Source: Alkalispirochaeta americana (GTDB lineage: Bacteria > Spirochaetota > Spirochaetia > DSM-27196 > Alkalispirochaetaceae). From it: DNA of 64,000 nt. This document shows positions 36,073 to 62,100 of the stretch, one piece after another. The stretch lies in assembly GCF_900156105.1 (NCBI RefSeq), contig NZ_FTMS01000007.1:1-64000 (forward strand). Reading direction: 5' to 3'. A model generated the notes under the pieces. The model searched no databases. It was not told where the DNA came from and was given only the letters and a program-made list of their open reading frames with translations. Positions within the stretch are counted from its first letter, which is position 1. Each line of letters opens with the position of its first letter. Position numbers and translations under genes: made by a program.

Positions 36073-38094
36073 ATGGGAAACTCAACAAGATACCGAGCAA
36101 CGATACACCTCGTGCTGATTACGGCAATTCTGGTGGTGCTCAATCTGGTGAGCTCCAATGCTTTTTTTCGCCTGGATCTCACCTCGAGCGGTGCCTACAG
36201 TCTCTCGCCGCTGACGCGGGAGACCCTGGCCCGGGCCGAGGATCCCCTGCGGGTGCGGATCTTTTACACCGATCGGGTGCCGCCACCCTATAACGGGGTG
36301 CGCCAGTATCTCCTGGACCTCCTGCGGGAGTATGAGACCCTGGGAGGGCGCTCCTTCAGTTACGAGGTGGTGGATGTCTCCTCTCCCGAGGGGCGCGCTG
36401 CTGCCCGGGAGTACGGTCTGGAGCAGGTGGAGATCCAGGAGGTTCGCTCCGACGAGTTTCAGTCCCGGGCGGTTTTTCTGGGAGCGGTGGTGCTCTACGG
36501 AAGCGCTCTGGAGAAGGTCGATCATATTTCCCGGAGTGATGGTCTTGAGTATCTCCTCACCTCGGCCATGGAGCGGGCGATCTCCCGGGTTGATGCCTTG
36601 GCGGGGCTCACGGAGCCGGTGAAGATGAGGGCTCTTCTCTCGGCCGATCTGGAACGGTACCGGATTCAGGGGCTTGAGGATCTTCCCCGTCAGCTGGAGG
36701 ATATCTTCCATCGGATCAACCGCGATTCCTACGATCGTCTGACCTACGAGCTGTCCCGGCCCCGGGACGACCAGGGGCGTCTTGAGGTGCAGTTTATCCA
36801 GGGGGATCGCCTTCAGACCGTTCCCCTCCAGGTCTATGCGGAGCTTTTTGGAGGCTACTCGCTGGATGATCCCCAGGATATAGAGGAATCCCTGCGCTGG
36901 GGGTTGCGGTCGCTGGTGGCGGCCAACCCCCGGGTGGGGTATTCCGTGGGGTTTGGCGAGCGGGATCTTCAGGATCACCGTCAGGGAGCGGGGGCGCTGA
37001 CGCTCCTCCTCGAGAACCGCTACGATCTGGTTCCGCTGGATCTCTCGGAGGGGGAGATTCCCCCCGATATCGATACCCTGGTGGTGAACGGTCCCCGTGA
37101 GGAGTTTTCCCGGCAGGCCCTGTACCGTCTGGATCAGTTTGTGATGCGCGGCGGCCGGCTTATGGTTTTTCTGGATCGTCACTATCAGCAGATGCCGTCC
37201 CAGCAGGAGATGCTCTTTGGGGCGCAGCCCCAGTGGGTTGAGATCGAGACGGGGCTGGAGAAGGTCCTGGCCCATTACGGACTGGAGCTGACCTCGGGGT
37301 TTGTTCTGGATGAGGAGAGTTTTGTCGCTTCGGCCCAGGGGGGGCGACAGAAGATCTATCAGGCCCCGGTGCTCCGGGGGGATTCCCTGAACAGGGATTC
37401 CGTGATCACCCGGGCTCTGGAGGACGTGATTGTCCTGAACGCTCAGGAGATCGGGGTTCCCCGGGCAGACGATGCCCTGGCGGGGCGCCGGGTGACTCCC
37501 TTGCTGCAGTCGTCTCCCCGGAGTTGGACCGTGGATGATCCCTCGCTGGCCGGGCCGGGGATCCAGGGGGTTCCTCCGGGCGAGACGCCGGACCGGCGTG
37601 TTCTGGCTGCGCTTCTGGAAGGGGAGATCCCCTCTTTTTTCCAGGCTCCTCCGGAAGATCTGGTATCCGGGGAAGATCTGGTATCCGGAGAAGACTTGGT
37701 ATCCGGGGAAGATCAGGAACCCGGTGCCGGGGCCTTTCCGGAACGGTTTCGCGGGAGCTCCGGTTCCGGGGGGGCGGTTTTGCTGGTGAGTTCCTCGGAG
37801 CTTACCACGGCGCAGCTTCTGGATCCGCAGAACCGCACGCCCAACGGAACCTTTGTGCTGAACGCCCTGGATTATCTGAAGGATCAACCGGGCCGGGCAG
37901 AGTTGCGCAGCAAGGGTCTGACCGTTCCCCGGTTGCATATCGCCTCGCCGGTTCTTCCCGGAATGATTCGCTGGTTCAATCTGCTGGTGGTGCCGGCTCT
38001 GGTGGTTCTTCTGGGATTGGTGGTGCGCTCACGCCGGCGTGCCCGAAGCAGAGCCCTGGAGGCGTTCTTTTCTGATGAGGAGGTCTCGTCATGA
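36073..38094 (+). CDS. GldG-like ABC transporter auxiliary protein
   Basis: A 673-residue protein with an N-terminal membrane helix (TIHLVLITAILVVLNLVSS), a large extracytoplasmic region of the ABC_transp_aux type (FFRLDLTSSGAYSLSPLTRE, LDLLREYETLGGRSFSYEVVD, DTLVVNGPREEFSRQ, GGRLMVFLDR) and a C-terminal membrane helix (WFNLLVVPALVVLLGLVV) followed by basic residues. It pairs with the preceding ATPase and permease. A short 18-bp tandem repeat adds (DLVSGE)n around residues 529-546. Its stop overlaps the next start. Confidence 0.85.
   Translation: MGNSTRYRATIHLVLITAILVVLNLVSSNAFFRLDLTSSGAYSLSPLTRETLARAEDPLRVRIFYTDRVPPPYNGVRQYLLDLLREYETLGGRSFSYEVVDVSSPEGRAAAREYGLEQVEIQEVRSDEFQSRAVFLGAVVLYGSALEKVDHISRSDGLEYLLTSAMERAISRVDALAGLTEPVKMRALLSADLERYRIQGLEDLPRQLEDIFHRINRDSYDRLTYELSRPRDDQGRLEVQFIQGDRLQTVPLQVYAELFGGYSLDDPQDIEESLRWGLRSLVAANPRVGYSVGFGERDLQDHRQGAGALTLLLENRYDLVPLDLSEGEIPPDIDTLVVNGPREEFSRQALYRLDQFVMRGGRLMVFLDRHYQQMPSQQEMLFGAQPQWVEIETGLEKVLAHYGLELTSGFVLDEESFVASAQGGRQKIYQAPVLRGDSLNRDSVITRALEDVIVLNAQEIGVPRADDALAGRRVTPLLQSSPRSWTVDDPSLAGPGIQGVPPGETPDRRVLAALLEGEIPSFFQAPPEDLVSGEDLVSGEDLVSGEDQEPGAGAFPERFRGSSGSGGAVLLVSSSELTTAQLLDPQNRTPNGTFVLNALDYLKDQPGRAELRSKGLTVPRLHIASPVLPGMIRWFNLLVVPALVVLLGLVVRSRRRARSRALEAFFSDEEVSS
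37657..37710 (+). repeat. In-frame 18-bp tandem repeat, three copies
   Basis: GATCTGGTATCCGGGGAA is repeated three times with single-base changes, and a fourth decayed copy follows. It encodes DLVSGE units in a probable surface loop of the GldG-like protein. Copy-number change would keep the reading frame. Confidence 0.9.
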
Positions 38095-39172: not shown

Positions 39173-40519
39173 CTAGGGGGCGGCTCGTTTCACGAGTTCC
39201 CGGGTGCAGCGGCGGGCCTCCCTCAGGACTTCTTCTTCGCCGGGAACCTGGCGGTTTTCCATGAGGACCCGGCCGTTGCAGATTACGCTGTCGACGACGG
39301 ATCCGTTGGCGCTGTAGACAAGGTTGCTCTGAAGGTTGTGGACCGGCACCATCTGGGGATGGTCCAGATCGATCAGGGCGATATCGGCGGGGGCTCCTTC
39401 GGTGAGGGCTCCGCCCACGCCCCAGGGTTCAAAGACGGTGCTCCGTGCTCCCGTTGCTATGGCCAGGATCTCTTCGGCGGGAAGGCGGGTGGAGTCCTGG
39501 AAGTGGTGCTTCTGCAGAAGTGCTGCCAGTTTCATCTCGTCGAACATGTCCAGGTTGTTGTTGCTGGCCGTGCCGTCTGTGGCAAGCATCAGCGGGGCCT
39601 TTCGCCGGGCGTAGTCCTGCCAGGGGAAGCACCCCGAGGCGAGCTTCATGTTGCTTGCCGGGTTGTGCACGGCGGTGATGCCCCATCGGGCGGCGATATC
39701 CAGCTCCGGGGGGTCCAGCCAGACCATGTGGGCTGCCACAACCCTGTCTCCCATGGTTTCCAGCACTCCCAGGTTCTGGAGATGCTCCATCGGGGGAACA
39801 CCCCGGGCGGCCAGGCATTCATCGACCTCCCGGCGGGTTTCGTTCATGTGGATGTGGTAGAGCAGGTGGTTCTCGCTGGCCTGGCGGGCGCACCACTGCA
39901 GGAGTTCGCCGCTGCAGGTGTAGATGCTGTGGGGGGCTATCACGGGGAAGACCTGTTCGGGCTCCTCCGGGGGGGATTTCCTGCGGTTGGGCCAGATCGT
40001 TTCCAGGTTGTCCTGGAGCCGATCCTGGACCTGGGCTCGCCGGTGGGGGTCGTCAAAATCGAAGAGGGCGAGCCCCAGGGCTGCCCGAATTCCGGCGTCG
40101 GTGAAGGCCTGGGCCGCTTGGGCCGGATGAAAGTACATGTCGTTGGCGAAGGTTGTGCCGCTTTTGATCATTTCCAGCGCGGCCAGGCGTGTCCCCCAGT
40201 AGATATCTTCCGGGGTCATGTGGGCTTCGGCGGGCCAGATTCGCTCCTGGAGCCAGGCCTGGAGGGGCATGTCGTCGCCGTATCCGCGCAGAAGGGTCAT
40301 GGCGGCGTGGGTGTGGGCGTTTTTGAATCCCGGGATTGCTGCTTTTCCCCGGCAGTCCACGCTGCGGGGCGTGGGTGTGCCCGGGGGCGGGGGGGAGCCC
40401 TGGGGGAGGATCGCGGTGATGGCTCCCCGGGATATCCAGAGGTCCTGGCCGGTGATGGGGCCTTGGGGAGTGAGAAGGTAGTCGGGATTGCGTAGTACCA
40501 GATCAGTGGCGTGGTCCAT
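39173..40519 (-). CDS. mtaD: Amidohydrolase, MtaD-type (5'-methylthioadenosine/SAH deaminase)
   Basis: The 448-residue metal-dependent hydrolase has the HxH metal site in GFKNAHTHAAMTLLRGYGDD, a third His in LLYHIHMNETRREVDEC, a fourth in VHNPASNMKLASG and the catalytic Asp in LATDGTASNNNLDMFDEMK. This set is characteristic of the MtaD/TRZ-ATZ group, which deaminates methylthioadenosine, SAH or adenosine. The frame stays open far upstream (to 43162), but ATG 40519 gives the normal family N-terminus (LVLRNPDYLLTPQGP). It is divergent from the fusion gene, with 45 bases between starts. It fits the nearby nucleoside import and ahcY genes. Confidence 0.88.
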   Translation of the reverse strand: MDHATDLVLRNPDYLLTPQGPITGQDLWISRGAITAILPQGSPPPPGTPTPRSVDCRGKAAIPGFKNAHTHAAMTLLRGYGDDMPLQAWLQERIWPAEAHMTPEDIYWGTRLAALEMIKSGTTFANDMYFHPAQAAQAFTDAGIRAALGLALFDFDDPHRRAQVQDRLQDNLETIWPNRRKSPPEEPEQVFPVIAPHSIYTCSGELLQWCARQASENHLLYHIHMNETRREVDECLAARGVPPMEHLQNLGVLETMGDRVVAAHMVWLDPPELDIAARWGITAVHNPASNMKLASGCFPWQDYARRKAPLMLATDGTASNNNLDMFDEMKLAALLQKHHFQDSTRLPAEEILAIATGARSTVFEPWGVGGALTEGAPADIALIDLDHPQMVPVHNLQSNLVYSANGSVVDSVICNGRVLMENRQVPGEEEVLREARRCTRELVKRAAP

Positions 40520-40564
40520 GGAAAAAGTGTAGCACATCGACTGGTCAGGATGCATTAGGGTAGA

Positions 40565-43531
40565 ATGGTTTCCATGGACAGAGCTCCTCTTCTTTCTCTG
40601 GTTATTCCTTCCCTGAACGGGAGTGTTCGTCTGGCCCGGCTTGTGCCCCGGGTGCGGTCTGTTTTGGCCGAGGCTGGCGGGGGCGAGGTGATTATCGTTG
40701 ACGACGGGAGTGATCCTGTTCACCGGGAGGCTCTGGCCGGGATGGCCGGGCCCGGGGTTCGGCTGGTTTTGATGCCCCGACGGACAGGGCAGATCGGGGC
40801 TACTCTGGCGGGGGTGGCCGCGGCGCGGGGGGAGCTGGTGGTTACGCTGGACGATGATGGGGCCCACCCTCCCGAGGTGATTCCGCTCCTGCGCCGCCGT
40901 CTGGAGGAGGTGCCGGGCTGTTCTCTGGTCTACGGTGTTCCGCGCCGAAAGGCCCGGGGGGTGCGGGGGCTGGGAACGCGGCTGAACTCTCTTTTGTTTC
41001 ATCTTTTTTTGGGGTTGCCCTGGAGCATTCCCGTGGGCAGTTTTCGCATGTTTCGGCGGGAGTTGCTGGTGAGGGCGCTGGAGCGGCCCGTGGCGTTTCC
41101 TTATCTTTCGGCGATGCTCTTGCAGTTCAGGCCTGTTACGGCGGCGGTGCGCTACGGCGAGTGGCCTCGTGGCGAGGAAAGCGGCCGCACTGCCCCGGGT
41201 GGCAACCACGAGGGCGGCCGCACTGCCCCGGGTGGCAACCACGAGGAAGGCGGCCGCGCTGCCCCGGCCGGTGGTGCTGCCCCGGGTGGCAACCACGAGG
41301 GCGGCCGCGCTGCCCCGGCCAGGGGCGCTGCCCCGGCCAGCCGCGCTGCCCCGAGTGGCAACCACGAGGAAGGCGGCCGCACTGCCCCGGCCGGGGGTGC
41401 TGCCTCGGGTGGCAACCACGAGGGCGGCCGCACTGCCCCGGGTGGCAACCACGAGGGAGGCGGCCGCGCTGCCCCGGCCGGCCGCACTGCCCCGGGTGGC
41501 AACCACGAGGGCGGCCGCACTGCCCCGGGTGGCAACCACGAGGGCGGCCGCACTGCCCCGGGTGGCAACCACGAGGGCGGCCGCGCTGCCCCGGGTGGCA
41601 ACCACGAGGAAGGCGGCCATGCTGCCCCGGGTGGCAACCACGAGGGCGGCCGCACTGCCCCGGGTGGCAACCACGAGGGCGGCCGCACTGCCCCGAGTGG
41701 CAACCACGAGGAAGGCGGCCGCGCTGCCCCGGCCGGTGGTGCTGCCCCGGGTGGCAACCACGAGGAAGGCGGCCGCGCTGCCCCGGGTGGCAACCACGAG
41801 GGAGGCCGCGCTGCCCCGGCCAGGGGTGCTGCCCCGGGTGGCAACCACGAGGGCGGCCGCACTGCCCCGGGTGGCAACCACGAGGGAGGCGGCCATGCTG
41901 CCCCGGGTGGCAACCACGAGGAAGGCGGCCGCACTGCCCCGGGTGGCAACCACGAGGGCGGCCGCACTGCCCCGGGTGGCAACCACGAGGCCGGCCGCAC
42001 TGCCCCGAGTGGCAACCACGAGGGCGGCCGCACTGCCCCGAGTGGCAACCACGAGGAAGGCGGCCGCGCTGCCCCGAGTGGCAACCACGAGGGCGGCGGC
42101 CGCGCTGCCCCGGCCAGGGGCGCTGCCCCGGGTGGCAGCAGCTATACCCTGGCGCGGCTCCTGAAGGTATACGGGTTGCTCCTGTTCTATTGGGGGCCGC
42201 TGCGGGCCCTGGGGCGGGTTGCGCGCCGTCCCCGGCGCGCGCTCCCCCGGCCCCGGCTTATGGTTCTGGGGGGTGGTAGCAGCCAGTTGGGGATTTTGGA
42301 GCGGGCCCGCCGGGAGGGGTTTTTGGTGGTCCTGGCCGATCAGGCTGAAAACCCGCCGGGGAGGGTCCTGGCTGATCGCTATGTGCAGGCCTCTACCTTC
42401 GATCATCGAGCGGTCTCCCGGGCGGCACGGGAGCTGGGAGTCGATGCAATTGTGGCGGCCGGGTCCGACCAGCCCGTGTATACCGCAGCCCGGGCTTCGC
42501 AGGATCGGGGGCTCCCCTATCCGCTTTCTCCCCGGGAGGCTCTGCTTGTTACCAACAAGGCTCACATGAAAGAGCGGTTTCGCCATGCCGGTATTCCCAC
42601 CGTTCCCTGGGCGGTTCTGGGTGATGACCCCTCGCGGTGGGATCAGGAGGGGCTGGCGCAGCTGCGCCTTCCCTGGGTAGTAAAACCCCTGGACAGCCAG
42701 GGCCAGCGGGGCATTGCGATTGTCCACAATCGTCGGGAGCTTCTGGACCATCGGCCCCGGGCTCTCTCCTTTTCCCGGGAGACGAGCCTCCTGGTGGAAG
42801 AATACTACCCCTCCCGGGAGGTGACCCTCAGCGGGTGGGCGTCCCGGAAGGGGGCACAACCCGAGATCTGGGCCGTGACGGACCGGATAACCTTCCCTCC
42901 CGACCTCTCGGGCGGTCAGGGCTTGGGCGTGTGCCTGGCACACCGCTACCCCTCGTGCTTTGCCCGGGGCCGGACCGGGGAGATCCGGGACATCACGGAG
43001 AGCATCACCCGGGCCTTCGGCCTTGGGGGGGTACCCCTCTATTTTCAGTTTCTCCTGGGAGCCGAAGGGGTGCGGGTGAACGAAATAGCCTGCCGTCTGG
43101 GCGGTGCCTACGAGGATATTTCCTTGCCCCCCGTAACAGGGGTAGATGTTCTGGGGCGGCAACTCGGGTGGTTTCAGACCGCTCTGGGCCTCCCCCGCCG
43201 GGAGGAGTCTCTGCCCCGGCAGGGTTCCTTCTGTGCGGTGCCCCTGATCTTTGCCCGCCCCGGCAGGGTCGCGGCCTGTTGCGGCAGGGAAGAGCTCCTG
43301 GAACTCCCCGGTGTGGAGGCTTGCCAGTTTCTTTTGCCCCCGGGAACGGTGATCGCTCCCCGGAGCAACTCCACCCAGCGGATCGCCTTCGCCGTTCTCC
43401 GGGGCTCCTCGCGGCAGGAGGTAAACAACCTGGTGGACCGGCTCTTTGACACCCTGCGTGCAGAAAACGCCCGGGGAGAGAACCTTCTGATCGATACCCG
43501 GGGTGATATAAAGGTGCGCTCCGGGCTATGA
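40565..43531 (+). CDS. GT2 glycosyltransferase / minisatellite linker / ATP-grasp fusion
   Basis: A 988-residue protein in three parts. Residues 1-200 are a GT2 domain of dolichyl-phosphate-mannose-synthase/GtrB style (LVIPSLNGSVRLARLVP, VIIVDDGSD, VTLDDDGAHPP, GSFRMFRREL). Residues about 206-525 are a tandem array of GGRTAPGGNHE-like units. After SSYTLARLLKVYGLLLFYW, the usual post-GT2 helix, residues about 560-985 form a carbamoyl-phosphate-synthetase-like ATP-grasp enzyme (VLGGGSSQLGILERARREG, AGSDQPVYTAA, LPWVVKPLDSQGQRGI, LVEEYYPSREVTLSGW, VNEIACRLGGAYED). The array sits exactly where relatives have a short loop before the helix. The next gene is seven bases downstream. The product and acceptor are unknown; ligation of an acid to a lipid-linked sugar is only a guess. 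Confidence 0.8.
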   Translation: MVSMDRAPLLSLVIPSLNGSVRLARLVPRVRSVLAEAGGGEVIIVDDGSDPVHREALAGMAGPGVRLVLMPRRTGQIGATLAGVAAARGELVVTLDDDGAHPPEVIPLLRRRLEEVPGCSLVYGVPRRKARGVRGLGTRLNSLLFHLFLGLPWSIPVGSFRMFRRELLVRALERPVAFPYLSAMLLQFRPVTAAVRYGEWPRGEESGRTAPGGNHEGGRTAPGGNHEEGGRAAPAGGAAPGGNHEGGRAAPARGAAPASRAAPSGNHEEGGRTAPAGGAASGGNHEGGRTAPGGNHEGGGRAAPAGRTAPGGNHEGGRTAPGGNHEGGRTAPGGNHEGGRAAPGGNHEEGGHAAPGGNHEGGRTAPGGNHEGGRTAPSGNHEEGGRAAPAGGAAPGGNHEEGGRAAPGGNHEGGRAAPARGAAPGGNHEGGRTAPGGNHEGGGHAAPGGNHEEGGRTAPGGNHEGGRTAPGGNHEAGRTAPSGNHEGGRTAPSGNHEEGGRAAPSGNHEGGGRAAPARGAAPGGSSYTLARLLKVYGLLLFYWGPLRALGRVARRPRRALPRPRLMVLGGGSSQLGILERARREGFLVVLADQAENPPGRVLADRYVQASTFDHRAVSRAARELGVDAIVAAGSDQPVYTAARASQDRGLPYPLSPREALLVTNKAHMKERFRHAGIPTVPWAVLGDDPSRWDQEGLAQLRLPWVVKPLDSQGQRGIAIVHNRRELLDHRPRALSFSRETSLLVEEYYPSREVTLSGWASRKGAQPEIWAVTDRITFPPDLSGGQGLGVCLAHRYPSCFARGRTGEIRDITESITRAFGLGGVPLYFQFLLGAEGVRVNEIACRLGGAYEDISLPPVTGVDVLGRQLGWFQTALGLPRREESLPRQGSFCAVPLIFARPGRVAACCGREELLELPGVEACQFLLPPGTVIAPRSNSTQRIAFAVLRGSSRQEVNNLVDRLFDTLRAENARGENLLIDTRGDIKVRSGL
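41181..42138 (+). repeat. GC-rich minisatellite, 33-bp basic unit, 23 NHE-containing copies
   Basis: The basic 33-base unit GGCGGCCGCACTGCCCCGGG plus TGGCAACCACGAG is repeated with 36-base (extra GAA/GGC codon) and longer variants that insert GCCCCGGCC-type pieces. Every change in length is a multiple of three, so the coding frame is kept. Twenty-three copies end in Asn-His-Glu, and many are identical over long runs, indicating recent amplification. About twenty copies contain GCGGCCGC (a NotI site). There are no unique spacers, so it is not a CRISPR array. Confidence 0.97.
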
Positions 43532-43538
43532 TCCAGGA

Positions 43539-44573
43539 ATGAAGAAATCGCATGTGCTTCTGCCGGTTTTGTTGATTTTGCTGGTTCTGCTTGCGGGATG
43601 CACCCCGGGAAACGGACAAGGTGACCAGGGGGCTGCACCCGGGGCGGTGCGTATCGCCGAGCAACACGGTCTGGCCTATCTTCCTCTGGTGATCATGCAG
43701 GTGGAGGGACTCCTGGAAGAGGAACTCCGCCGCGAATTTGCCCCCGACCCTGCTCCCGCCGTGGAGTGGCGGCGCACAGGCAATGCCTCGGCCATTCGCG
43801 AGGCCATGTTGGCAGGGCACCTGGATATTGGCTTTATGGGGATACCACCCTATCTGATCGGGGTGGATCGAGGTACAGGCTGGCGGGTCTTTACGGGGCT
43901 TTCCGAGGCGCCTCTGGGGCTGGTAACGATCAGGGAGGGCCTGCGGTCCCTGGACGATCTGCAGCCCCGGGATCGAATTGCCCTGCCCCAGCCCGGAAGC
44001 ATCCAGCACATTCTCCTGGCCATGGCATCGGAGGACCGCTACGGCGATCCCCGCCGCTTCGATGACCAACTGGTGAGCATGGGCCACCCCGAAGGGCTCA
44101 CGGCGCTTCTGGCGGGGCGCGATGTGGCGGCGCAGTTCACGGCTCCCCCCTTCCTCTTCTCGGCGCTGGATCATCCCGGGGGGCAGCTTCTGCTGGAAGG
44201 GCGCCAGGCCTTCGGAGGTTCCTTTACCTTCATCATCGGTGTGGCCGCCCCCGGTTGGGGAGAGAAGCCAGGGGAGGCGCGGCTGGAGCAGGCCTTCCTG
44301 CGTGCCCTGGACCAGGCTATCGATCTTGCCCGGGAGGTTCAGGCCGGGGAGCAGCAAACCCTGTTCAGGGCACTCTCCCGGGTCTACGGCGTTGAGGAAC
44401 CGGTGCTTCGAAGGCAACTCGATTATCCCGGTCAGCGCTATGGCCGGGAGGTGCGGGGCTTTGACCGCTTTATCGGCAGTATGGACCGCTACGGCTATCT
44501 TCAGGGGGAGAGGGTCCGGGATTTCCTCGCCGGTGCCGCCCCCCAGGTTCTTCAGACGAGCCATGACTCCTGA
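43539..44573 (+). CDS. ABC transporter substrate-binding lipoprotein (NMT1/SsuA-like)
   Basis: The 344-residue protein has a lipobox LLAGC (Cys21) after a hydrophobic signal, then a type-II binding-protein fold: VRIAEQHGLAYLPLVIMQVE, EAMLAGHLDIGFMGIPPYLIG, DDLQPRDRIALPQPGSIQHI, VAAQFTAPPFLFSAL. This is the NMT1/SsuA/ThiY family that captures small molecules such as sulfonates, pyrimidines or nitrate. No residue tells the ligand. It is seven bases after the fusion gene and overlaps the permease gene by 11 bases. Confidence 0.85.
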   Translation: MKKSHVLLPVLLILLVLLAGCTPGNGQGDQGAAPGAVRIAEQHGLAYLPLVIMQVEGLLEEELRREFAPDPAPAVEWRRTGNASAIREAMLAGHLDIGFMGIPPYLIGVDRGTGWRVFTGLSEAPLGLVTIREGLRSLDDLQPRDRIALPQPGSIQHILLAMASEDRYGDPRRFDDQLVSMGHPEGLTALLAGRDVAAQFTAPPFLFSALDHPGGQLLLEGRQAFGGSFTFIIGVAAPGWGEKPGEARLEQAFLRALDQAIDLAREVQAGEQQTLFRALSRVYGVEEPVLRRQLDYPGQRYGREVRGFDRFIGSMDRYGYLQGERVRDFLAGAAPQVLQTSHDS

Positions 44574-45351
44574 GAGCTCCCCCTGGCCGCCCCGGGTGAT
44601 CGCCTGGGCGATCGTTCTGGCCCTGCTCCCCCTCTGGGAGGTCCTGCGCCGGCTGGGGGGCGTCTCGCCGCTTCTGATGCCTCCCCTGGGAGAGATCGCC
44701 ACAGCGCTTCTGGAGGCGCTGCGGGGGGGCTCCCTGGTGGCCCAGGTCCTTACTTCCCTGGGATTTATCCTCACCGGGGCGGCGATCGCCCTCGTCCTCG
44801 CCCTGACGGCGGTGCTCCTTTCGGCATCCCTGAGGAGCGTGGCCGCCCTGATGCGGCTCCTGGGGGCGCTCCTCCACCCCCTGCCGGGAATTGTCTTGCT
44901 GCCGGTGATCGTCCTCTGGGCAGGTATTGGCCCCGCAGCGGTGCTGGTGGTGATTGTCCACAGCGTGTTTTGGCCCGTTCTTACCAATCTCCAGGCTGGA
45001 TACAGCGCGATCCCCCTTACCTGGCGAATGGTGGCGCGAAACTACCAGCTGGGGGGGCTGCAGTATTTGCTGCGGATTGCCCTGCCTGCCACAGCACCCT
45101 ATCTGCTGGCAGGGCTCCGTATCGCCTGGGCCAGGGCCTGGCGTGCGCTGATCAGCGCCGAGATGCTCTTTGGCTCCGTCTCCGGGTCAGGCGGGTTGGG
45201 GTGGTTTATCCACTCCCGGCGGGTCTTCATGGATACGGCGGGGCTCTTTGCAGGAATCGTCACGGTGATGGCCGTGGGAAGCCTGGTGGAAACCGTGGTC
45301 TTCCGGGTGGTGGAGGAACGGACCATTCGCCGCTGGGGGATGACAGCATGA
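44563..45351 (+). CDS. ABC permease (SsuC/ThiX-like)
   Basis: A 262-residue inner-membrane permease of the BPD_transp_1 family with six hydrophobic segments. The EAA-type cytoplasmic loop is LQYLLRIALPATAPYLLAGLRI. It starts at ATG 44563, within the end of the binding-protein gene, and ends in ATGA with the ATPase start. It is the channel of the import system headed by the lipoprotein at 43539. Confidence 0.88.
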   Translation: MTPESSPWPPRVIAWAIVLALLPLWEVLRRLGGVSPLLMPPLGEIATALLEALRGGSLVAQVLTSLGFILTGAAIALVLALTAVLLSASLRSVAALMRLLGALLHPLPGIVLLPVIVLWAGIGPAAVLVVIVHSVFWPVLTNLQAGYSAIPLTWRMVARNYQLGGLQYLLRIALPATAPYLLAGLRIAWARAWRALISAEMLFGSVSGSGGLGWFIHSRRVFMDTAGLFAGIVTVMAVGSLVETVVFRVVEERTIRRWGMTA

Positions 45352-46073
45352 GCAACACCCTGGCTGGCGCTCCCCGGGGAGCATCGCCCCTCTTGCATCT
45401 GGAGAAGATCACCCTGGCCTACGACGGCGCCCCCATTCTTCACAACTGTTCGCTCACGCTCGAAGAGGGAGAGCTGGTATGTCTTCTGGGCCCCTCGGGG
45501 TGCGGAAAAACGACGCTCCTGAAGGTGGCCGGCTCATTTCTGCTTCCCCGGTCCGGAGAGGTCCTTCTCCAGGGACGGCCCGTGACGGCCCCCGACCCCC
45601 AGCGGATCATGGTCTTTCAGGATCAGGATCAACTCTTTCCCTGGAAACGGGTAGAGGACAACGTGATCCTTGGAATAACCCGTGGGCGCCCAACCCCGGC
45701 CGAGAGGGAGGCCGCCCGGGCCATCCTGACCGAGGTGGGGCTTGGCGAGGCCCTCCGCCGCTATCCTCACCAGCTTTCGGGGGGAATGCGGCAGCGGGCT
45801 GCCCTGGCCCGAGCCTTCGCAGGACGCCCCCGGCTCTTTCTGATGGATGAGCCCTTTGCCTCGGTGGACGCGCCCCAGCGAAGAGAACTGCAGGGCCTCC
45901 TTCAACGCCTGCTCCGGGACCACCGGGGAACAGCCCTTTTTGTCACCCACGATGTGGAAGAAGCCCTTCTTCTGGGCTCCCGGGTTCTTGTCATGAACCG
46001 CCGGGGGGAACTCCTTCCCGAGGACCCCCGCCGGGACCGGGACCGTCTGAACCAGGCCCTTCAGGAGGGATAA
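45348..46073 (+). CDS. ABC transporter ATPase (SsuB/TauB-like)
   Basis: The 241-residue ATPase has Walker A LGPSGCGKTT, Q-loop VFQDQDQLFPWKRVEDNV, signature LSGGMRQRAALARAFAG, Walker B RLFLMDEPFASVD and switch FVTHDVEEAL. This is the nitrate/taurine/sulfonate subfamily. It starts at ATG 45348 overlapping the permease TGA. Its last 83 bases are also used on the other strand by the GT39-like gene. Confidence 0.9.
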   Translation: MSNTLAGAPRGASPLLHLEKITLAYDGAPILHNCSLTLEEGELVCLLGPSGCGKTTLLKVAGSFLLPRSGEVLLQGRPVTAPDPQRIMVFQDQDQLFPWKRVEDNVILGITRGRPTPAEREAARAILTEVGLGEALRRYPHQLSGGMRQRAALARAFAGRPRLFLMDEPFASVDAPQRRELQGLLQRLLRDHRGTALFVTHDVEEALLLGSRVLVMNRRGELLPEDPRRDRDRLNQALQEG

Positions 46074-47754
46074 GGTTCCGGTCGGGAAGGCTCTCTTCGG
46101 GAGGAACAAGGCGGTAGATCACCACCCGGGGGTCTATCCGCGAGGCCAGGGGAATCAGGCGTGCCCCGTACCAGGGAGCCAGAAACGAATCCTGTACCTG
46201 GCCTCGCCGTTCCAGAAGCTCCTCCAGTTCCCGATAAAACCGGTGAGGGTTGCCGTAGACCTGGTTCCAGAGGGGCCGTTCCCGGTAGACCAGAGCCAGC
46301 TCCTCCCGGGGGATCACCACCCATTCCACCCGTTGCTCAAGCAAAAACCGCTCCAGAGACCCCTCCAGAGGATCCAGTGATTCCAGATCGCGAAAGACGC
46401 GCAGCTGTCCCGGCTCAAAGGCAAAGGCGCTGTTGAGGCTCGCCAGAACGGGAGCTCCCGGGGGAACACTGGAGTTAATCCTCGCCAGATACTCTGTGTA
46501 GGTGTAGGTGTAGGTGTAGGTGTAGGTGCAGGTGCTGTCAGAATCGAGCCCCCGGACATCGGCCCCCCGGCCATGATCCTCCGGAACGACCCTGGCGGGG
46601 AACATCTCGATAAGTTCTGTCGTCACGAGGGTCCCGGTTATTCCCGCCAGCCCCAGGCCAAGCCCGGTCAGGAGAAGTCTCACCCCCCGCCGGGGCCAGC
46701 CTTTGGCCACCGCCCCCGCCAGCGCCCCCAGGGTGTAGTACAGGCCGGGAAGCAGAAAAACCGTGGAGGGCGGACTGTACTTGCCGATGATCACCAGCGC
46801 CGCCGCCGTGAAAAGGCTCGAGAAGGCGCACGTACGCAGCAGGCGCCGGCTCTTTCCGGGTATCCCCCGCCAGGCCGAAAGTGCCAGAGCCAGAGGGGTG
46901 GCAATCCCCAGAGCGGCAAGCTGGATCAAGGAGGGGGGCAGATAATAGGTTCCGGCGATCCGCTGGCTCATCTTGATGATGAAGTTTACCGCCTCCCGGA
47001 GCCGCACCAGGGGGTGGGCTGTGACACCCACGGAACGCCCAAAGGCCAGATAATTGCTGAAAAATTGAGGGTCCCAGAAGAGACTCAAAGCCAGAGCCAG
47101 CGTCCCCGCCAGGGCCAGCATTCCCAGATAGATCGCCAGATCCCGCACCATCCGGCCGGGCCTGCTCCGATACACCACCCAGGGAAGAACAGCGGCAGCA
47201 GCGACAAACGAGTTGGGGTGAATAAAAACAGCCAGCCCCAGAATGATTCCGGCAACCAGAGCAGACCCTGCGGCGATTCCCCCCGCAAGAGCCGCCAGAA
47301 GGAGCGCCTCCTGCCGGGCCAGATGGCTCGCGGCGAAAAGAAGCGGGTCCAGGGCAAAAGCCAGGGTGAGCGCCACAGCCACGGGCGGGAAAATCTTCTC
47401 ACGGCGCAGGACCAGCCCCAGGAGAGCCACCGTGATCAGCCCTCCTGCCAGGGAGGGTGCCCTGGCAGCGCCGATAGTCCACCATCGCGACACCAGCGGG
47501 CCCTGAATAAGGTGATACAAGGTCTTGATCGCGTGGGGGTGACGCGGCGTAAGGAGGAAAAACTCCTCCGTGGCGGCGAGGTTTTTTTCAAGCCAGATGG
47601 TACGGCTCAGCGAAGCAAGCCAGGCCTCGTCGGAGTGAACAAAGGGAAACCACGGGAGACTCCAGAGATGAAGTCCCAGATAGGCCACCCCCAGGAGAGT
47701 CGCCGCCACGGCCGCCACCAGTGCCAGGGAATCCACGGCACCCGGGGTGTTCAT
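45991..47754 (-). CDS. GT39/83-like polytopic glycosyltransferase
   Basis: A 587-residue membrane protein with about ten to twelve hydrophobic helices. After the first helix comes PWFPFVHSDEAWLASLSRTI, whose acidic pair resembles the catalytic loop of ArnT/PMT-type GT-C transferases that use polyprenyl-phosphate sugars at the periplasmic face. A soluble C-terminal part has SLERFLLEQRVEWVVIPREE. A Thr-Tyr repeat (residues about 408-417) stems from a hexanucleotide array. Met 47754 is chosen because the longer TTG-started frame would translate a transcription terminator. The acceptor is unknown; the GT2 domain of the fusion gene could make a lipid-sugar donor. Confidence 0.7.
   Translation of the reverse strand: MNTPGAVDSLALVAAVAATLLGVAYLGLHLWSLPWFPFVHSDEAWLASLSRTIWLEKNLAATEEFFLLTPRHPHAIKTLYHLIQGPLVSRWWTIGAARAPSLAGGLITVALLGLVLRREKIFPPVAVALTLAFALDPLLFAASHLARQEALLLAALAGGIAAGSALVAGIILGLAVFIHPNSFVAAAAVLPWVVYRSRPGRMVRDLAIYLGMLALAGTLALALSLFWDPQFFSNYLAFGRSVGVTAHPLVRLREAVNFIIKMSQRIAGTYYLPPSLIQLAALGIATPLALALSAWRGIPGKSRRLLRTCAFSSLFTAAALVIIGKYSPPSTVFLLPGLYYTLGALAGAVAKGWPRRGVRLLLTGLGLGLAGITGTLVTTELIEMFPARVVPEDHGRGADVRGLDSDSTCTYTYTYTYTYTEYLARINSSVPPGAPVLASLNSAFAFEPGQLRVFRDLESLDPLEGSLERFLLEQRVEWVVIPREELALVYRERPLWNQVYGNPHRFYRELEELLERRGQVQDSFLAPWYGARLIPLASRIDPRVVIYRLVPPEESLPDRNLIPPEGPGSDGPGPGGGPREGVPPGGS
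46496..46531. repeat. Hexanucleotide microsatellite (GTGTAG)n
   Basis: Five perfect copies of GTGTAG are followed by GTGCAG. In the minus-strand GT39-like gene it codes for alternating Tyr and Thr. Slippage would add or remove two residues without frameshift. Confidence 0.9.
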
Positions 47755-55440: not shown

Positions 55441-56214
55441 TCAGGCGATGCAGTGGAGTCGGCAGGCGCAGCGTGTGTCTGTTGTCGGGGCCTGGTCTGT
55501 TGCCGATCCCCGGGAGGACGCTTCGTCCCGGACGTGGATCTCGGCAATGGGTGCTTCCTCCGTGCCGCCAGTGATAACGGCGTATTCCTGGCCGACCTTT
55601 GTCTCGGCGGTAAAGCTCAGGGCGTGAAGCCCTGCAGGGGAGGAGAACATTCGGGGTGCCTCGTCGAGGAACCACTGAGCGTAGCGGGCGTTGTTCACGT
55701 GGGCGTTTCGGTCGGTATCGCTGGGGCGAACGCGGTGCCATCGGGCTGCTTCCAGCAGAGGAAGCGCCTCCTCCGGGGGGATCGTCGGCATCCGGCCCAG
55801 GGGCATCTCCAGCTGGTAAGCCCCGGTGAGCTTTTCGGGCGGAAAATAGCGTTCGGGCCGTACGGGCTTGCTTTCCCGGGCCGTGAGGATGATCCACGAC
55901 GACGTGGCCTCGGCCAGGAGCTCTCCCCCGGTGGTGTGGAGGGTAAACTCCCGCAGCGCCAGGAGACGTTCCATGCGGCTGGGCCAGGTGGTGATCACCA
56001 CATCTTCGCCCCAGGCGGGACGGCGGGTACACCGAACCCCCAGGCGGTGGAGCACCCAGAAGAGAGAAGGTTCATCCTCGGTGAAGGCGATCCCCAGTTT
56101 CTCGGCGTGCCGCCAGGCCCCCTCCTGAAAGAGGCTGGCCATGCCGTCAAGTCCAAGGCGATCATCGGGAGCGCAGAGAAAACTGGGAATGGTCATGGAA
56201 TATTCAAAAGTCAT
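55441..56214 (-). CDS. Acyl-ACP thioesterase
   Basis: The 257-residue protein has two hot-dog domains as in FatA/FatB-like bacterial thioesterases: GLDGMASLFQEGAWRHAEKL, LFWVLHRLGVRCTRRPAWGE, and in the second domain VRPSDTDRNAHVNNARYAQW, which holds the conserved Asp/Asn/His group. It releases fatty acids from acyl carrier protein. The C-terminal 20 residues (SSRGSATDQAPTTDTRC) are non-conserved. Its ATG overlaps the stop of the upstream GH13 gene, so the two are co-translated. Confidence 0.85.
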   Translation of the reverse strand: MTFEYSMTIPSFLCAPDDRLGLDGMASLFQEGAWRHAEKLGIAFTEDEPSLFWVLHRLGVRCTRRPAWGEDVVITTWPSRMERLLALREFTLHTTGGELLAEATSSWIILTARESKPVRPERYFPPEKLTGAYQLEMPLGRMPTIPPEEALPLLEAARWHRVRPSDTDRNAHVNNARYAQWFLDEAPRMFSSPAGLHALSFTAETKVGQEYAVITGGTEEAPIAEIHVRDEASSRGSATDQAPTTDTRCACRLHCIA

Positions 56215-59200
56215 TTGGTTCCTTTCGGTTTTTCTGATCGGGCGTTCCGTTTTGGCCCGCTCCCGGGCTGCTTGTCCGGTGCCGACTGCTTGTCCGGTGC
56301 CGACTGTGCCGGCTGTGCCGGCTGTGCCTCGGATGCTGTCTCGGCTTCGGACGCTGCCTCGAGCTCCTCCTCGGGCTCCGGCTGGAGCGCCTCCAGAAGG
56401 CGGTCAACCCGGTAGCGGCTTGCCTTTTCTGCCCGGCGCCATTCCCGGTAGACCCGGGCCATGCCGGTGGTCTCTTTCAGGACCCGTTTCCAGCTGACCC
56501 GTGTTCCTGCGGCCACGGCCGCCGTGAGCTCGTGCCAGGCCCCGATAACCAGAAGCCAGTCAATCAGCAGGTCAAAAGCTTCCTGGTTGAACCAGGTGAT
56601 CCCGTTATGGCTGTGGATACGGAGAAAGGTCTCCACGTTGGGATCTGCCAGGAGCGATTCCACAATCGTCAGGGCCGTTGTTTCCTGCGGTTCCCCTATG
56701 CCGTAGCGCCACCAGTTATGGTGTGCCAGGGTGATTTGTACCAGTTGTGACCAGTAATCGGGCAGGGAGCCGTCGGGCTGGATCTGCATCAGGATAGGGC
56801 GCAGCGTCTCGATCAGTTGCCACTCGCCGGCCTGATCCAGGGCGTGATAGCCCACAAGCTGGGGGCTGATCCGGTCCTGGCCGGAAATAAAGACATCCAG
56901 AGGCAGAAGCAGCGTCAGAGCCAGGAAGATCGATGCGTCTTCCCGTTCGGCCTCCATGTGAGAGGCTACCAGGGCACCCACCTCGTCGGGGGCGCGTTTT
57001 ACCAGCTGCGAGAGCCGATCCAGGGCCTCACCGTTGTGCTGGAAGAGCGCCACGGCGTCTTCCAGGCGGGTGGTATGCTCGCAGAACTGACCGGCTATTC
57101 CCAGGAATGTCCGGTACTGGGTGGCAAGCTCCTCCCAGTCCACGGGTGCGGCGGTCCCCACGAGCGCTTCCATGAGGGTTCGCATGATGCCGGTGTTTGC
57201 CAGGGCACCGAAGGCATCGTGGAGGGGCTGCAGCAGAAGCCGCTTCATGGCCCGGGAGATATCGGGGGTTCCCGCTCCCCCCAGAGAGTCGGCCAGGCGG
57301 GCGTAATGGGAGTAGCGGTTGTCCTCAACCTCGTACATATTGAGGCAGACCTGACTCTCGTAGCCCTTGAGCTGCAGATAGAGTCCCCGCTCCAGAATTT
57401 CGCCGCAGTTCCTGATGAACCAGAGGCCGCTGCGCTGTTCCTGAAAGATCACAAAGTGCTTCCACGAGGGGGTGAGATTCAGGGCCGGGATGAGCTGCTC
57501 CGTCATGCGTGCCCGCGATTCATCGCCGTGGATCACGTAGGGGGCCGAGGTATGGATCCACCCGGAGGCTTCCTGGTAGCTGTTGTTGTACATCACCAGG
57601 GTTCGTCCCTCCTGGTTGCCCTGGGAGTGGTTGTCCTGGGATGCCTGGCGGTTGGAATAGACAAAGACATGGGGATTCACGTCGCCGTTGGCGGCGTAGA
57701 CATCGTAGAGACGAAAATGGGTAGCATCGGCAAAGAGATGGCGCTGGTGCATGAGGGGGAAGATCTCCCGCTGGTGCCGCTCGATGAGACCCTGATTGGG
57801 GGTCTCGTCCCAATAGGCCTTGCGGTATTCCATGCCGTATTTCTCGGCGAACCCCTCGATCTGGCCATGGCCGAACATGGGAAGCCCCGGCATGGTCACC
57901 ATCATGGTGGCAACCCCGAAATATTTGTCTCCCGAGCCGAACTGGGCCACGGCGGTGTCCTCGTCGGGGTTGTTCATGAAGTTTACAAACCGCTTGAGAA
58001 CCTCCGGATCGTACTCCAGGGTATTCTTGATGGTGGTTCGGTAGTTCTCGTTCTCCTCGTTTTTGAGCATATTCATGAAGGCGCTGTTATAAACCCGGTG
58101 CATCCCCAGGTTTCGAACAAAGTAGCCCTCCATCATCCAGAAGGCTTCGGCCAGGAGAAGCGTGTCGGGCACCTCCTGGGCCACCCGGTCTACCACCTCT
58201 CGCCAGAATTCCAGGGGAATAGCCTTTTCGAAATCGGCCCGGGAGAGGCCGTGATCGCTTCGGGAGGGGATATCACCACCCTGACCCGGCGCGGGGAACC
58301 AGAGGCGCTGAATGTGCTTCTTTGCCAGGGTCATAGCGGCATCGAAACGGATGATGGGGAAGTTTTTTGCCACGGTGATGATTGTCTGAATTACCGCCTC
58401 GCGGGCCTCGGAGTTGAGATAGTTCAGCTGGGCCGTGTCGTTCCAGGGCATGCTGGTGCCATCGTTCCCGTGGTAGATATAACGAACCTCGCCGCTGGAG
58501 CTGTTTACCCGTTTGAAGACCACCGCTGCGTCGCTGCGGTTGTAGTAGTGGTCTTCCAGGTAGATCTCCACCCCTTCGCGGGTGCTGAGGTTTTCTCCCT
58601 GAAAGGTATATCCCGGGAAGGGGCTGTCGGGGAGGGATATGAACCACTCCGGGTGTTCGTGAACCCATCGGGAATCTATTCCCGTGTGGTTGGGAACCAT
58701 ATCGCTGGCGATACGGATTCCCCGCTGCCAGAGGCGACGTCGCAGGGTGTCCAGAGCCTCCCAGCCCCCCAGCTCCCGGGCAATATCGTAGTCGTAGAGC
58801 GAATAGGCGCTTGCCTCGGCCTCGGGGTTTCCGCAGAGGTTCTTGATCCGCCTGGAGGCCTGGGAGCGCTGCCACAGTCCGATGAGCCAGAGGCCGGTGA
58901 AGCCCTGCCGTGCAAGGAGATCGAGTTCGGCGTCCGGGATCGCATCCAGGGTGGTGATCTCCCGCTGATACTTTTTGGAGAGTTGGTCCAGCCAGACCAG
59001 GGTGCTTTTGGCAAGAATCACCGCTCGGGGCATCCACTCCCGGTCAGGGCTGAACCGGGCGTAGTCGGCATCCTCTCCCGGGAAATTGCCCCCGTGGGGG
59101 AACTCCAGGACGGAGCTTTCTCCGGGACCAAAGAACCGGGCCTTGTGCTCCTCGGCCAGAACATCCAGGGAGCGCAGTATCCGGTCCAGAAAGGACCCCA

Positions 59201-59933
59201 CCAGGCTGTCCCAGCGACGGCGGATGTAATCGAGCTGGGCGTGAAGATCATCGGGGTGGGCCCGGGCCGGGGCCAGGAGAAGCTCGATCAGGGTCTGATC
59301 GTCGGGCCCGAAGGAGGGCTGGGTCTCGAAGAAATCCCCGATGGCCGTCATGGCCCGGTCGTAACAGGTATCCAGAGCCAGGAGCTGCTCGTCAAACAGT
59401 TCCAGCAGGGGATAGAAGCCCAGGTTCCGGTTTCCGGTCCAGAGCAGGATCATCTCTTCCAGGGCTATCTCGCGGCCCGAGAGGCCCTCCTGGGTGCGGT
59501 CCAGACTTTCCCGGGGGCTTTCCTTGCCCTGATAGCAGGCAACCGTGGGAAAACGCTCCGAGAAGAGCATCAGGAGCCGGTCAACCTCGGCGGTTCCCAG
59601 GGTGCTTTCCAGGTGCGCCTCCAGGCGCCGAAGCATATCCTGGCCGTACTGCTGGAGGTAGAGGGAGATCACGTAATGAAAAATCTCGTCGATCAGCCCC
59701 ATGGCCAGGATATCCCCGGCGCGTACCGCCCGTTCGGGATGAAGGGCGCTTTTGCGCACAGTGTTTATGCGCATGGCAAAGTCCCGGGCCTGACGGGTTT
59801 CGGCAAAGAGAACGTGGCCCTGGATGGAGAAGATTCCCTGGGAGAAGTGGTAGGTATCACGGGCGCTGCGGGATATATGAAACTCCCGGAGCGGTCCCGG
59901 TACAAACGAATCTGTCCTGTAGATGGTTTTCAT
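56211..59933 (-). CDS. Large GH13-family alpha-glucan-active enzyme
   Basis: A 1240-residue protein. A roughly 350-residue helical N-terminal region precedes a GH13 barrel with region I DMVPNHTG, region II PIIRFDAAM (nucleophile Asp), region III LLLAEAFW (acid/base Glu) and a variant region IV NFMNNPDED, in which Pro replaces the usual His. A long helical C-terminal part ends in a low-complexity Glu/Ala/Pro/Lys tail. No signal peptide at Met 59933, so it acts in the cytoplasm on alpha-glucans, together with MalQ next door. ATG 59933 has GGGAGAG upstream; an earlier start would include repeat DNA. Specificity is unknown. Confidence 0.8.
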   Translation of the reverse strand: MKTIYRTDSFVPGPLREFHISRSARDTYHFSQGIFSIQGHVLFAETRQARDFAMRINTVRKSALHPERAVRAGDILAMGLIDEIFHYVISLYLQQYGQDMLRRLEAHLESTLGTAEVDRLLMLFSERFPTVACYQGKESPRESLDRTQEGLSGREIALEEMILLWTGNRNLGFYPLLELFDEQLLALDTCYDRAMTAIGDFFETQPSFGPDDQTLIELLLAPARAHPDDLHAQLDYIRRRWDSLVGSFLDRILRSLDVLAEEHKARFFGPGESSVLEFPHGGNFPGEDADYARFSPDREWMPRAVILAKSTLVWLDQLSKKYQREITTLDAIPDAELDLLARQGFTGLWLIGLWQRSQASRRIKNLCGNPEAEASAYSLYDYDIARELGGWEALDTLRRRLWQRGIRIASDMVPNHTGIDSRWVHEHPEWFISLPDSPFPGYTFQGENLSTREGVEIYLEDHYYNRSDAAVVFKRVNSSSGEVRYIYHGNDGTSMPWNDTAQLNYLNSEAREAVIQTIITVAKNFPIIRFDAAMTLAKKHIQRLWFPAPGQGGDIPSRSDHGLSRADFEKAIPLEFWREVVDRVAQEVPDTLLLAEAFWMMEGYFVRNLGMHRVYNSAFMNMLKNEENENYRTTIKNTLEYDPEVLKRFVNFMNNPDEDTAVAQFGSGDKYFGVATMMVTMPGLPMFGHGQIEGFAEKYGMEYRKAYWDETPNQGLIERHQREIFPLMHQRHLFADATHFRLYDVYAANGDVNPHVFVYSNRQASQDNHSQGNQEGRTLVMYNNSYQEASGWIHTSAPYVIHGDESRARMTEQLIPALNLTPSWKHFVIFQEQRSGLWFIRNCGEILERGLYLQLKGYESQVCLNMYEVEDNRYSHYARLADSLGGAGTPDISRAMKRLLLQPLHDAFGALANTGIMRTLMEALVGTAAPVDWEELATQYRTFLGIAGQFCEHTTRLEDAVALFQHNGEALDRLSQLVKRAPDEVGALVASHMEAEREDASIFLALTLLLPLDVFISGQDRISPQLVGYHALDQAGEWQLIETLRPILMQIQPDGSLPDYWSQLVQITLAHHNWWRYGIGEPQETTALTIVESLLADPNVETFLRIHSHNGITWFNQEAFDLLIDWLLVIGAWHELTAAVAAGTRVSWKRVLKETTGMARVYREWRRAEKASRYRVDRLLEALQPEPEEELEAASEAETASEAQPAQPAQSAPDKQSAPDKQPGSGPKRNARSEKPKGTK

Positions 59934-59980
59934 TGCTTCACTCTCCCTCTTTGGTTCTCTCTCGTTCTTTATCATGACGC

Positions 59981-60047
59981 GAATCATCCTGTGAATCATC
60001 CTGTGAATCATCCTGTGAAACACAGTGAGAAACACAGTGAGAAACAC
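59981..60047. repeat. 12-bp tandem repeats upstream of the GH13 gene
   Basis: GAATCATCCTGT is repeated three times, followed by two copies of GAGAAACACAGT-like units. The block lies between malQ and the GH13 gene. It creates a spurious upstream extension of the GH13 frame. Confidence 0.85.
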
Positions 60048-60102
60048 GCCACTGAATACTACACTGAAACCGTGCAGGCAGCTTGTCAGCCTGCAGGTCG
60101 GT

Positions 60103-62100
60103 TCAGCTTCGGGCTGCAAGATCCCGGAGCACTTCCTGCAACCGGGGATGATCCTGGAGCGCTTCCATGGTCAGGGGCATCCGCCAGGTCCAGTTAAAAC
60201 TGTTGGCGGTGCCGGGTACGTTGATTCTGTCCTGGCGGGATTCCTTCCGGGGAAGGTCCGGTGTCAGGGCGAACAGATCCTGGAGCTGAAAGACCACGAT
60301 TCTGCTGCTGCACGCCAGGATGCCCCGGTATACCTCCAGGGCCACCTCGGGGGTGAACTGTTCCGGGCAGGGGCGGTCCTCGCCGGAGGTGATCTCTCTC
60401 CAGAGAGCTTCCCGGCCCGACTCGTCTTCCCACCAGCCCCGGAGGGTGGAGGTGTCATGGACGCTGGGGGCGCAGACGCTGGCCTCGGGATACTCTCCCA
60501 GGGGAATGAGGGGTTCTCCCGGCTGGTCCCAGTAGTGGCTCCAGCGGGGTATGAGCAGGCTCAGGATCCCCAGTTCTCCCAGAACGCGGGGAACTGCCTC
60601 GGGGACGACCCCCAGATCCTCGGCACAGGTGAGCATATCCGTGGTGTTCTGCATGAACTTCAGGAGTGTGCGACCCTGTTCGGCCCAGAGCTCGTTGTTT
60701 TCTGCGCCCCGGCGGTCAAGGAGTTCCTCAATACGGGCCCGCTCCTCGGGGGAGAGGGTCTGGTAACGGCTGCAGTCCCGGAAGAACCAGCTTGGTGCAA
60801 AGGTTCCGTCGGGCAGCTCCAGGAGGGCCCGGTCCCGATAGCGCTCCAGGAGCCACTCCTGCTGCCCGGCGGGCAGGCCCAGGGCAATGATGTCGGCTTC
60901 TCCCCTGATTGCTGGGGAAAACAGGAAGAGATCCTCCTGATCGATCTGTTCGAAGAGAGTGGTGATCAGGCCGGGCAGATCCTCGCCCAATCCCTGATGG
61001 AGCTCTTCTCCCCGCAGGTGGGGCTCGCTGAGCCAGCGCAGGCGGCCTGCATCAAGACCAACCTGACCCAAATCATCGCGGGTGAGCCCTTTCTGGGGCC
61101 AGAAAAATCCCAGGGTACCCGAGACGTTTCGTTCCGGGATGGACCAGATGCGGAAAAATCCCAGAACGTGATCGATCCGGTAGGCCTGGTAATATTGAGC
61201 TGCCTGCCGGAGCCGCTCGCGCCACCAGGCGTAATCCTGGCTCTCCAGATAGTCCCAGTTGTAAATGGGAAATCCCCAGTTCTGGCCCAGGTCGCTGAAC
61301 ATATCCGGGGGAGCTCCGGCGCGGAGGTCGGGACGGAAGACCTCCCTGTTGAACCAGGCGTCCACGCTGTCCTGGTTCATCAGAATGGGGATATCCCCCT
61401 TCAGGGCAACTCCCAGGCGAGCCACCTCCCGGGAGGCCTCCCTGAACTGCCGGGCGAGCCGCATCTGGACCCAGGCGTAAAAACGGGTTTCCCTCTTGAG
61501 CGATGCCCGCCGCCAGAGCTTGTCCACCAGGGCTTGATCCCCCTGGCGGTGTTCCTCCCAGGTGGTCCAGGCGCGCCCCTGGTGGGCGTCCTTGAGGGCG
61601 CGAAACACGCTGTAGGGTTTGACCCAGGGGTTGGCCCGGACAAAAGCGGTGAGGTCTTTTCCCGCCGGGGTGGTGTCCGTTCCTTCCGGTCCCTCGGGGG
61701 CTGCTTCGGTAAAAATCTGCCGCAGCAGGGCGGTTTTCTCCGCCAGAACCCGGCCGTGATCGAAGCGTTCCGGGCCGTCCAGCTCCTGGTGCAGTTTTTT
61801 CAGCTGGCTCTCCAGGGCGGCCCGGACCTTCGGGGAAAGCTCCTGCAGTTCCGGCAGATCCTGGATGCGGATATAGACGGGGTGCAGGGCGTAGGCGCTG
61901 AGGGCGCTATAGGGAGAACTCTCTCCGCCTGTGTCGTTTACCGGCAGAAGCTGGATAAGATTGAGCCCCGTTGCAGAACACCACCGGGCCAGATCGGGAA
62001 GATCGGCAAACTCGCCGCAACCGATGCTGGTGGTACTGCGAAGCGCCGCCAGAGGAACCAGGACGCCCGTGATGCGGGCGGTGCCGTGGGGATATTTCAC
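60103..62100 (-). CDS. malQ: 4-alpha-glucanotransferase
   Basis: The 665-residue GH77 enzyme moves alpha-1,4-glucan segments between chains. Signature parts: SIGCGEFADLPDLARWCSAT, LIQLLPVNDTG, the nucleophile in YRIDHVLGFFRIW, AEDLGVVPEAVPRVL with the catalytic Glu/Asp loop, and VHDTSTLRGWWEDE. The length is longer than the simplest MalQ (about 500) and closer to types with extra inserted segments. It lies upstream of the GH13 gene on the same strand. Role: glycogen or maltodextrin metabolism. Confidence 0.92.
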   Translation of the reverse strand: MKYPHGTARITGVLVPLAALRSTTSIGCGEFADLPDLARWCSATGLNLIQLLPVNDTGGESSPYSALSAYALHPVYIRIQDLPELQELSPKVRAALESQLKKLHQELDGPERFDHGRVLAEKTALLRQIFTEAAPEGPEGTDTTPAGKDLTAFVRANPWVKPYSVFRALKDAHQGRAWTTWEEHRQGDQALVDKLWRRASLKRETRFYAWVQMRLARQFREASREVARLGVALKGDIPILMNQDSVDAWFNREVFRPDLRAGAPPDMFSDLGQNWGFPIYNWDYLESQDYAWWRERLRQAAQYYQAYRIDHVLGFFRIWSIPERNVSGTLGFFWPQKGLTRDDLGQVGLDAGRLRWLSEPHLRGEELHQGLGEDLPGLITTLFEQIDQEDLFLFSPAIRGEADIIALGLPAGQQEWLLERYRDRALLELPDGTFAPSWFFRDCSRYQTLSPEERARIEELLDRRGAENNELWAEQGRTLLKFMQNTTDMLTCAEDLGVVPEAVPRVLGELGILSLLIPRWSHYWDQPGEPLIPLGEYPEASVCAPSVHDTSTLRGWWEDESGREALWREITSGEDRPCPEQFTPEVALEVYRGILACSSRIVVFQLQDLFALTPDLPRKESRQDRINVPGTANSFNWTWRMPLTMEALQDHPRLQEVLRDLAARS

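Follow-up and report, generated by a model that had tools for sequence, protein, structure and literature searches.

An in-frame minisatellite inside the glycosyltransferase module of a GT2/ATP-grasp fusion protein of Alkalispirochaeta americana

What is a repeat array of nearly 1 kb doing inside the reading frame of an enzyme, and in which part of the enzyme does it sit? The locus that raises this question lies in a 64,000-nucleotide stretch of DNA from Alkalispirochaeta americana, a free-living spirochaete of soda-lake type (the stretch is here called the window; positions 1 to 64,000 of contig NZ_FTMS01000007.1), which belongs to a 3.3-Mb draft genome in 65 contigs. A first-pass annotation had described a GT2 domain joined to an ATP-grasp domain by a minisatellite linker, and had proposed that changes in linker length tune a surface-glycan enzyme between cells. 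The gene and its parts are listed below.

40565..43531, plus strand: fused GT2/ATP-grasp gene, 988 aa, ATG start (open frame, orthologue alignment, NG86 dN/dS)
40595..41068, plus strand: GT2 (GT-A fold) catalytic domain (PF00535, residues 11-168, E 6.5e-19; 15-homologue profile against ArnC, E 2.6e-45)
41180..42136, plus strand: in-frame minisatellite of 23 NHE-ending units and a partial unit (957 bp, 319 aa, 79% G+C)
42137..42232, plus strand: C-terminal juxtamembrane-like helix of the GT2 module, SSYTLARLLKVYGLLLFYWGPLRALGRVARRP, putative JM2/IFH2 equivalent (aligns with the ArnC SKYSFMRL helix and with SRY(S/T)xxxL of the orthologues)
42257..43465, plus strand: ATP-grasp ligase domain with a LAL_C2 C-terminal domain (LAL_C2, residues 895-967, E 3.3e-11; phmmer to 4dim, E 1.8e-11)

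The single 988-residue frame reported earlier was confirmed: it is open throughout, with PF00535 before the array and LAL_C2/ATP-grasp-type matches after it. An alternative start at 40574 is possible and aligns with the start of the Alkalispirochaeta alkalica orthologue. LAL_C2 (PF18603, E 3.3e-11) scored above its cutoff, and the ATP-grasp core gave weak Pfam and PDB matches only. The GT2 motifs VDDGS and LDDDGAHP are present in the window protein, and D47 and D131-D133 (numbered on the first sequence) are invariant in 15 members of the GT2 family.

We delimited the repeat units by cutting the array at every NHE. The resulting units measured 33, 36, 51, 54 or 69 bp and the terminal piece 45 bp; each length is divisible by 3, and the 23 copies of GGCAACCACGAG share one frame, so that the earlier claim of an in-frame minisatellite was borne out. 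The count of 23 NHE units also stood. The description of the units as about 33 to 36 bp left out those of 51 to 69 bp, which carry an additional 18-bp AAPA-type insertion, and the extent given before as 41181-42138 is corrected to 41180-42136. Near-identical tandem units of about 10 to 100 bp that lie in an open reading frame and keep it are a coding minisatellite, or intragenic tandem repeat. There are 16 distinct unit types, the partial unit included, and the commonest, GGCGGCCGCACTGCCCCGGGTGGCAACCACGAG, has seven copies. All 23 units share the same GNHE codons, and the other unit positions vary. The 319 residues, which begin at residue 206 of the protein, include 25 His and 30 Glu and would form a long disordered segment, as judged from composition only. 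The G+C content is 79% in the array versus 66% in the remainder of the host gene. Tandem Repeats Finder scored the array at 1245 versus 187 for the runner-up, a separate array, in 404 kb of the same genome (a sample that took in 340 kb of stretches outside the window), and the array is therefore far beyond chance. Two further observations concern this stretch. Twenty of the 21 NotI sites (GCGGCCGC) of the window fall in the array (41180-42136). On the minus strand, an ORF of 1329 aa (39173-43162) spans an amidohydrolase and the entire array; we rejected it as a gene extension, since the units have no stop in that frame and the amidohydrolase frame simply continues across them.

The position of the array differs from the one first proposed. 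The residues directly after its end, SSYTLARLLKVYGLLLFYWGPLRALGRV, correspond in relatives to the GT2's own C-terminal helix, and the ATP-grasp begins about 40 residues beyond the array. Where relatives have the two as separate genes, the GT2 terminates shortly past this helix. By alignment with these relatives, the array sits within the GT2 module, immediately ahead of the C-terminal helix. It is therefore not the linker that joins GT2 to ATP-grasp, as had been claimed, and its placement before the SSYTLARLLKVY helix was upheld. The best PDB match of a profile built from 15 GT2 homologues was ArnC (E 2.6e-45), followed by GtrB and DPMS. The window family resembles these enzymes in its GT-A core, after which come an S-(K/R)-Y motif, in most members, and an amphipathic helix; the S-R-Y-S of the family aligns with the ArnC S-K-Y-S, and the array-bearing loop precedes the motif. 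Most family members have S-R-Y, and the window protein and A. alkalica have S-S-Y. Aligned in this way, the array would occupy the equivalent of the ArnC/GtrB/DPMS acceptor loop, which connects the final strand of the GT-A core to the juxtamembrane helix. The acceptor loop of Pyrococcus DPMS (residues 202-210) runs directly into interface helix 2 and shuts over the active site (PMC5526996). GtrB is highly sensitive to mutation in its second juxtamembrane helix and in the surrounding residues (PMC4728340). Unlike ArnC, GtrB and DPMS, the window family has not retained the Arg and Lys of the acceptor loop as such, and the alignment of the loop Arg was inconsistent. Judged from sequence, there are no transmembrane helices after the juxtamembrane helix; the ATP-grasp domain or the protein end follows at once. 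When the A. alkalica fusion was modeled from an alignment whose sole second row was the window protein, the predicted structure had a mean pLDDT of 34.8, too poor to place the loop.

We compared the locus with one genome per species. The array unit was found in none of the 45 other genomes of the order and is single-copy in its own genome, where it is confined to the array; a mobile or dispersed repeat was therefore rejected. The nearest gene-bearing relative was A. alkalica DSM 8900, the sole return of the genome-contigs scan, which shares an average nucleotide identity of 81% with A. americana (PMC13286283). Its orthologue is 84% identical over aligned residues and is likewise fused, and the loop site holds only GDARGSREIDGSASSY, an ordinary short loop; this difference documents repeat turnover at the level of species only. 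Across 28 orthologues, the stretch from YxS to S-R-Y spans 25 to 46 residues (median, 28), compared to 345 in the window protein, which agrees with the short loop that had been expected of relatives. Loop length differs even among close relatives (38 residues in G070 versus 46 in G090). A GT2 gene was present in the same locus at all 31 related ATP-grasp loci examined. The two genes are fused at 5 of these 31 loci, as well as in the window, and since the fused loci are spread over three families (f1, f31 and f33), the fusion probably arose more than once. Two separate observations were made in another loop of the GT2 domain: the A. alkalica orthologue (L075:2775-4886) carries a 35-residue insertion (residues 59-93) that is absent from the window protein, and the corresponding place in G001 (L026) is taken by a GTRGAGGTRGAG repeat.

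Both domains that flank the array are under purifying selection. NG86 dN/dS between the window protein and A. alkalica was 0.21 for GT2 and 0.15 for ATP-grasp, values that cover all change from the time at which the two lineages parted and are blind to a very recent loss of function. With G001 as the outgroup, unique substitutions in the window protein versus A. alkalica numbered 5 versus 5 in GT2 and 13 versus 11 in ATP-grasp. The array-bearing protein is no faster evolving, which argues against an old pseudogene; a very recent loss would escape.

Downstream of the fused gene, the window carries an ABC importer.

43539..44573, plus strand: SsuA-like substrate-binding protein of the importer (TIGR01728, E 2.1e-12, below the curated cutoff)
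44122..45351, plus strand: ORF with an ABC permease (TIGR01183, E 2.7e-20, residues 189-377, below cutoff)
44970..46073, plus strand: ORF with an ABC importer ATPase, true start further in (PRK11248 taurine ATPase, E 2.2e-56, below cutoff)

The true start of the permease must also lie further in, because the N-terminal part of its ORF overlaps the binding-protein gene. In the loci that we read, the GT2/ATP-grasp pair stands upstream of an importer of the sulfonate/taurine/nitrate type; an SsuA-like binding protein follows the pair, with a permease in several, and the window has all three importer genes. The pair beside an SsuA-like ABC importer is conserved in spirochaetes (window 40565-46073, L025-L038 and L108-L124) and is fused in at least three families. 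The operon looks as much like a cluster for transporting and ligating small molecules as like a glycan locus. Given this neighborhood, the label of a surface-glycan enzyme is a guess, and one among several.

The genome is a 65-contig draft, and we considered whether short-read assembly could have created or collapsed the array or altered its unit number. The longest exact repeat within the array is 74 bp. All 77-mers are unique and no adjacent unit pair recurs, which is the pattern left by an assembler that resolves only repeats shorter than its k-mer; an assembler limited to 77 bp would give the same pattern from a longer array, and 23 units may therefore be an underestimate. However, the same uniqueness allows each unit to be placed by reads of more than 77 bp. 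The array has continuous flanks and 16 distinct unit types, and no unit breaks the frame. Recurring adjacent pairs would be a sign of block duplication; there were none in the array, but under random order their absence is unremarkable and not significant (P 0.19). Together, these points make an artifact highly improbable, and it is very likely that an array, of whatever length, exists.

How, then, is the array to be understood? The reading that we favor, and consider probable, is that it is a young, species-specific, in-frame coding minisatellite in a length-tolerant surface loop, tolerated by an enzyme that is still constrained. The units are near-identical and the sister species has no array, and on this time scale the array is therefore young. 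A unit of 33 bp, rich in Gly, Ala, Pro and Arg, would have arisen from local sequence; a local seed is plausible but unproven, since native loops in relatives hold AAPGG- or DPGG-like residues. Replication slippage, or recombination between units (unequal exchange), would then have multiplied the unit, and selection would have removed changes that broke the frame, leaving every length a multiple of three. The enzyme could tolerate a long disordered insert at this site because the loop varies in length. In the same genome, the period is divisible by 3 in 41 of the 60 arrays of period 6 or more (404 kb sampled), and neighboring genes differ from those of A. alkalica by small in-frame repeat-based insertions. 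Such smaller in-frame repeats, differing from A. alkalica, were seen at 37653-37714, 46496-46534 and 56211-60119 (GEDLVS, TYTYTY and QPAQSAPDKQ). From this background, these insertions and the 35-residue insertion of A. alkalica, the array can be seen as the extreme of a general tendency. No other repeat in the 404 kb sampled comes near it in size, and there could be a special reason for this. By analogy with other bacterial coding minisatellites, strains probably differ in unit number, and the enzyme is most likely little affected by it.

Other readings give the array more to do. Cell-to-cell gain and loss of units could alter the length of the acceptor loop and hence the activity or geometry of the enzyme, as an adaptive contingency locus. 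Near-identical in-frame units are a substrate for such length change, and the array maps to the loop that gates the active site of DPMS (PMC5526996). Precedents exist in the alpha-1,3-fucosyltransferases FutA and FutB of Helicobacter pylori, whose heptad number differs among related strains (12 repeats in PMSS1 versus 4 in SS1; PMC5358919), and in the in-frame repeat of Escherichia coli tolA, in which RecA-dependent recombination changes copy number, with contraction at 6.9e-5 (PMC3477136), and copy number affects stress tolerance. Yet no relative carries the array, and the operon encodes an SsuA-like importer, which leaves the surface-glycan role a guess; we regard adaptive tuning as unlikely. 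It is likewise unlikely that the protein is a polyprenyl-phosphate-type glycosyltransferase with a recombination-prone minisatellite as its acceptor loop, such that loop lengths and activity differ within one population.

The 25 His and 30 Glu in 319 residues, together with the invariant GNHE codons, raise the idea of a flexible functional domain, a His/Glu-rich tether that would bind a metal or a partner or hold both enzymes near the membrane. The invariance amid a variable remainder is a weak hint of constraint on the motif. It may also stem from recent homogenization, however, and the array does not lie between the two domains and is missing from the 84% identical orthologue and every other relative, all of which makes this role improbable. 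A 319-residue insert beside a catalytic gating loop could, on the other hand, easily disrupt GT2, the more so as the corresponding juxtamembrane region of GtrB is very mutation sensitive (PMC4728340) and the array looks young; the protein would then survive as an ATP-grasp ligase or be a nascent pseudogene. The intact frame, the catalytic motifs and a GT2 dN/dS of 0.21 without window-specific acceleration speak against such an inactivation, which is very improbable, although a recent loss would escape these measures.

Against known systems, what is new is narrow. FutA and FutB belong to a different GT family and have 21-bp units at a C-terminal position. They resemble the window protein as bacterial glycosyltransferases with an in-frame coding minisatellite, in their case one whose unit number is known to differ among related strains. 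The window array lies inside the catalytic module by the gating loop. TolA is an envelope protein with its repeats in a structural region and not in an enzyme loop; it shares an in-frame intragenic tandem repeat, for which both effect and rate have been measured. Similar G/A/P/R repeats elsewhere in the class occur in unrelated sequences such as IF2. In the IF2 N-terminal region of another spirochaete (L126:2-1918), in-frame GGRPAPGGRPQQ units are similar in composition to the array, but the gene is unrelated and the units precede the GTPase domain instead of lying within a catalytic module. The earlier statement that no protein of this form had been described therefore holds for the position in the catalytic module and fails for glycosyltransferases with a length-varying in-frame repeat, of which FutA and FutB are examples. 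Coding minisatellites, including one in a glycosyltransferase, are already known; the position inside the catalytic module is new.

The GT2/ATP-grasp pair next to an ABC importer, fused several times, may matter as much as the array. At the array locus itself, the turnover of repeats in a spirochaete could be measured. Should the enzyme work with 319 additional residues by its gating loop, it would serve as a natural experiment on how large an insertion a GT-A glycosyltransferase tolerates there, and if unit number varies and alters activity, the locus would offer a rare example of a catalytic loop tuned by repeats.
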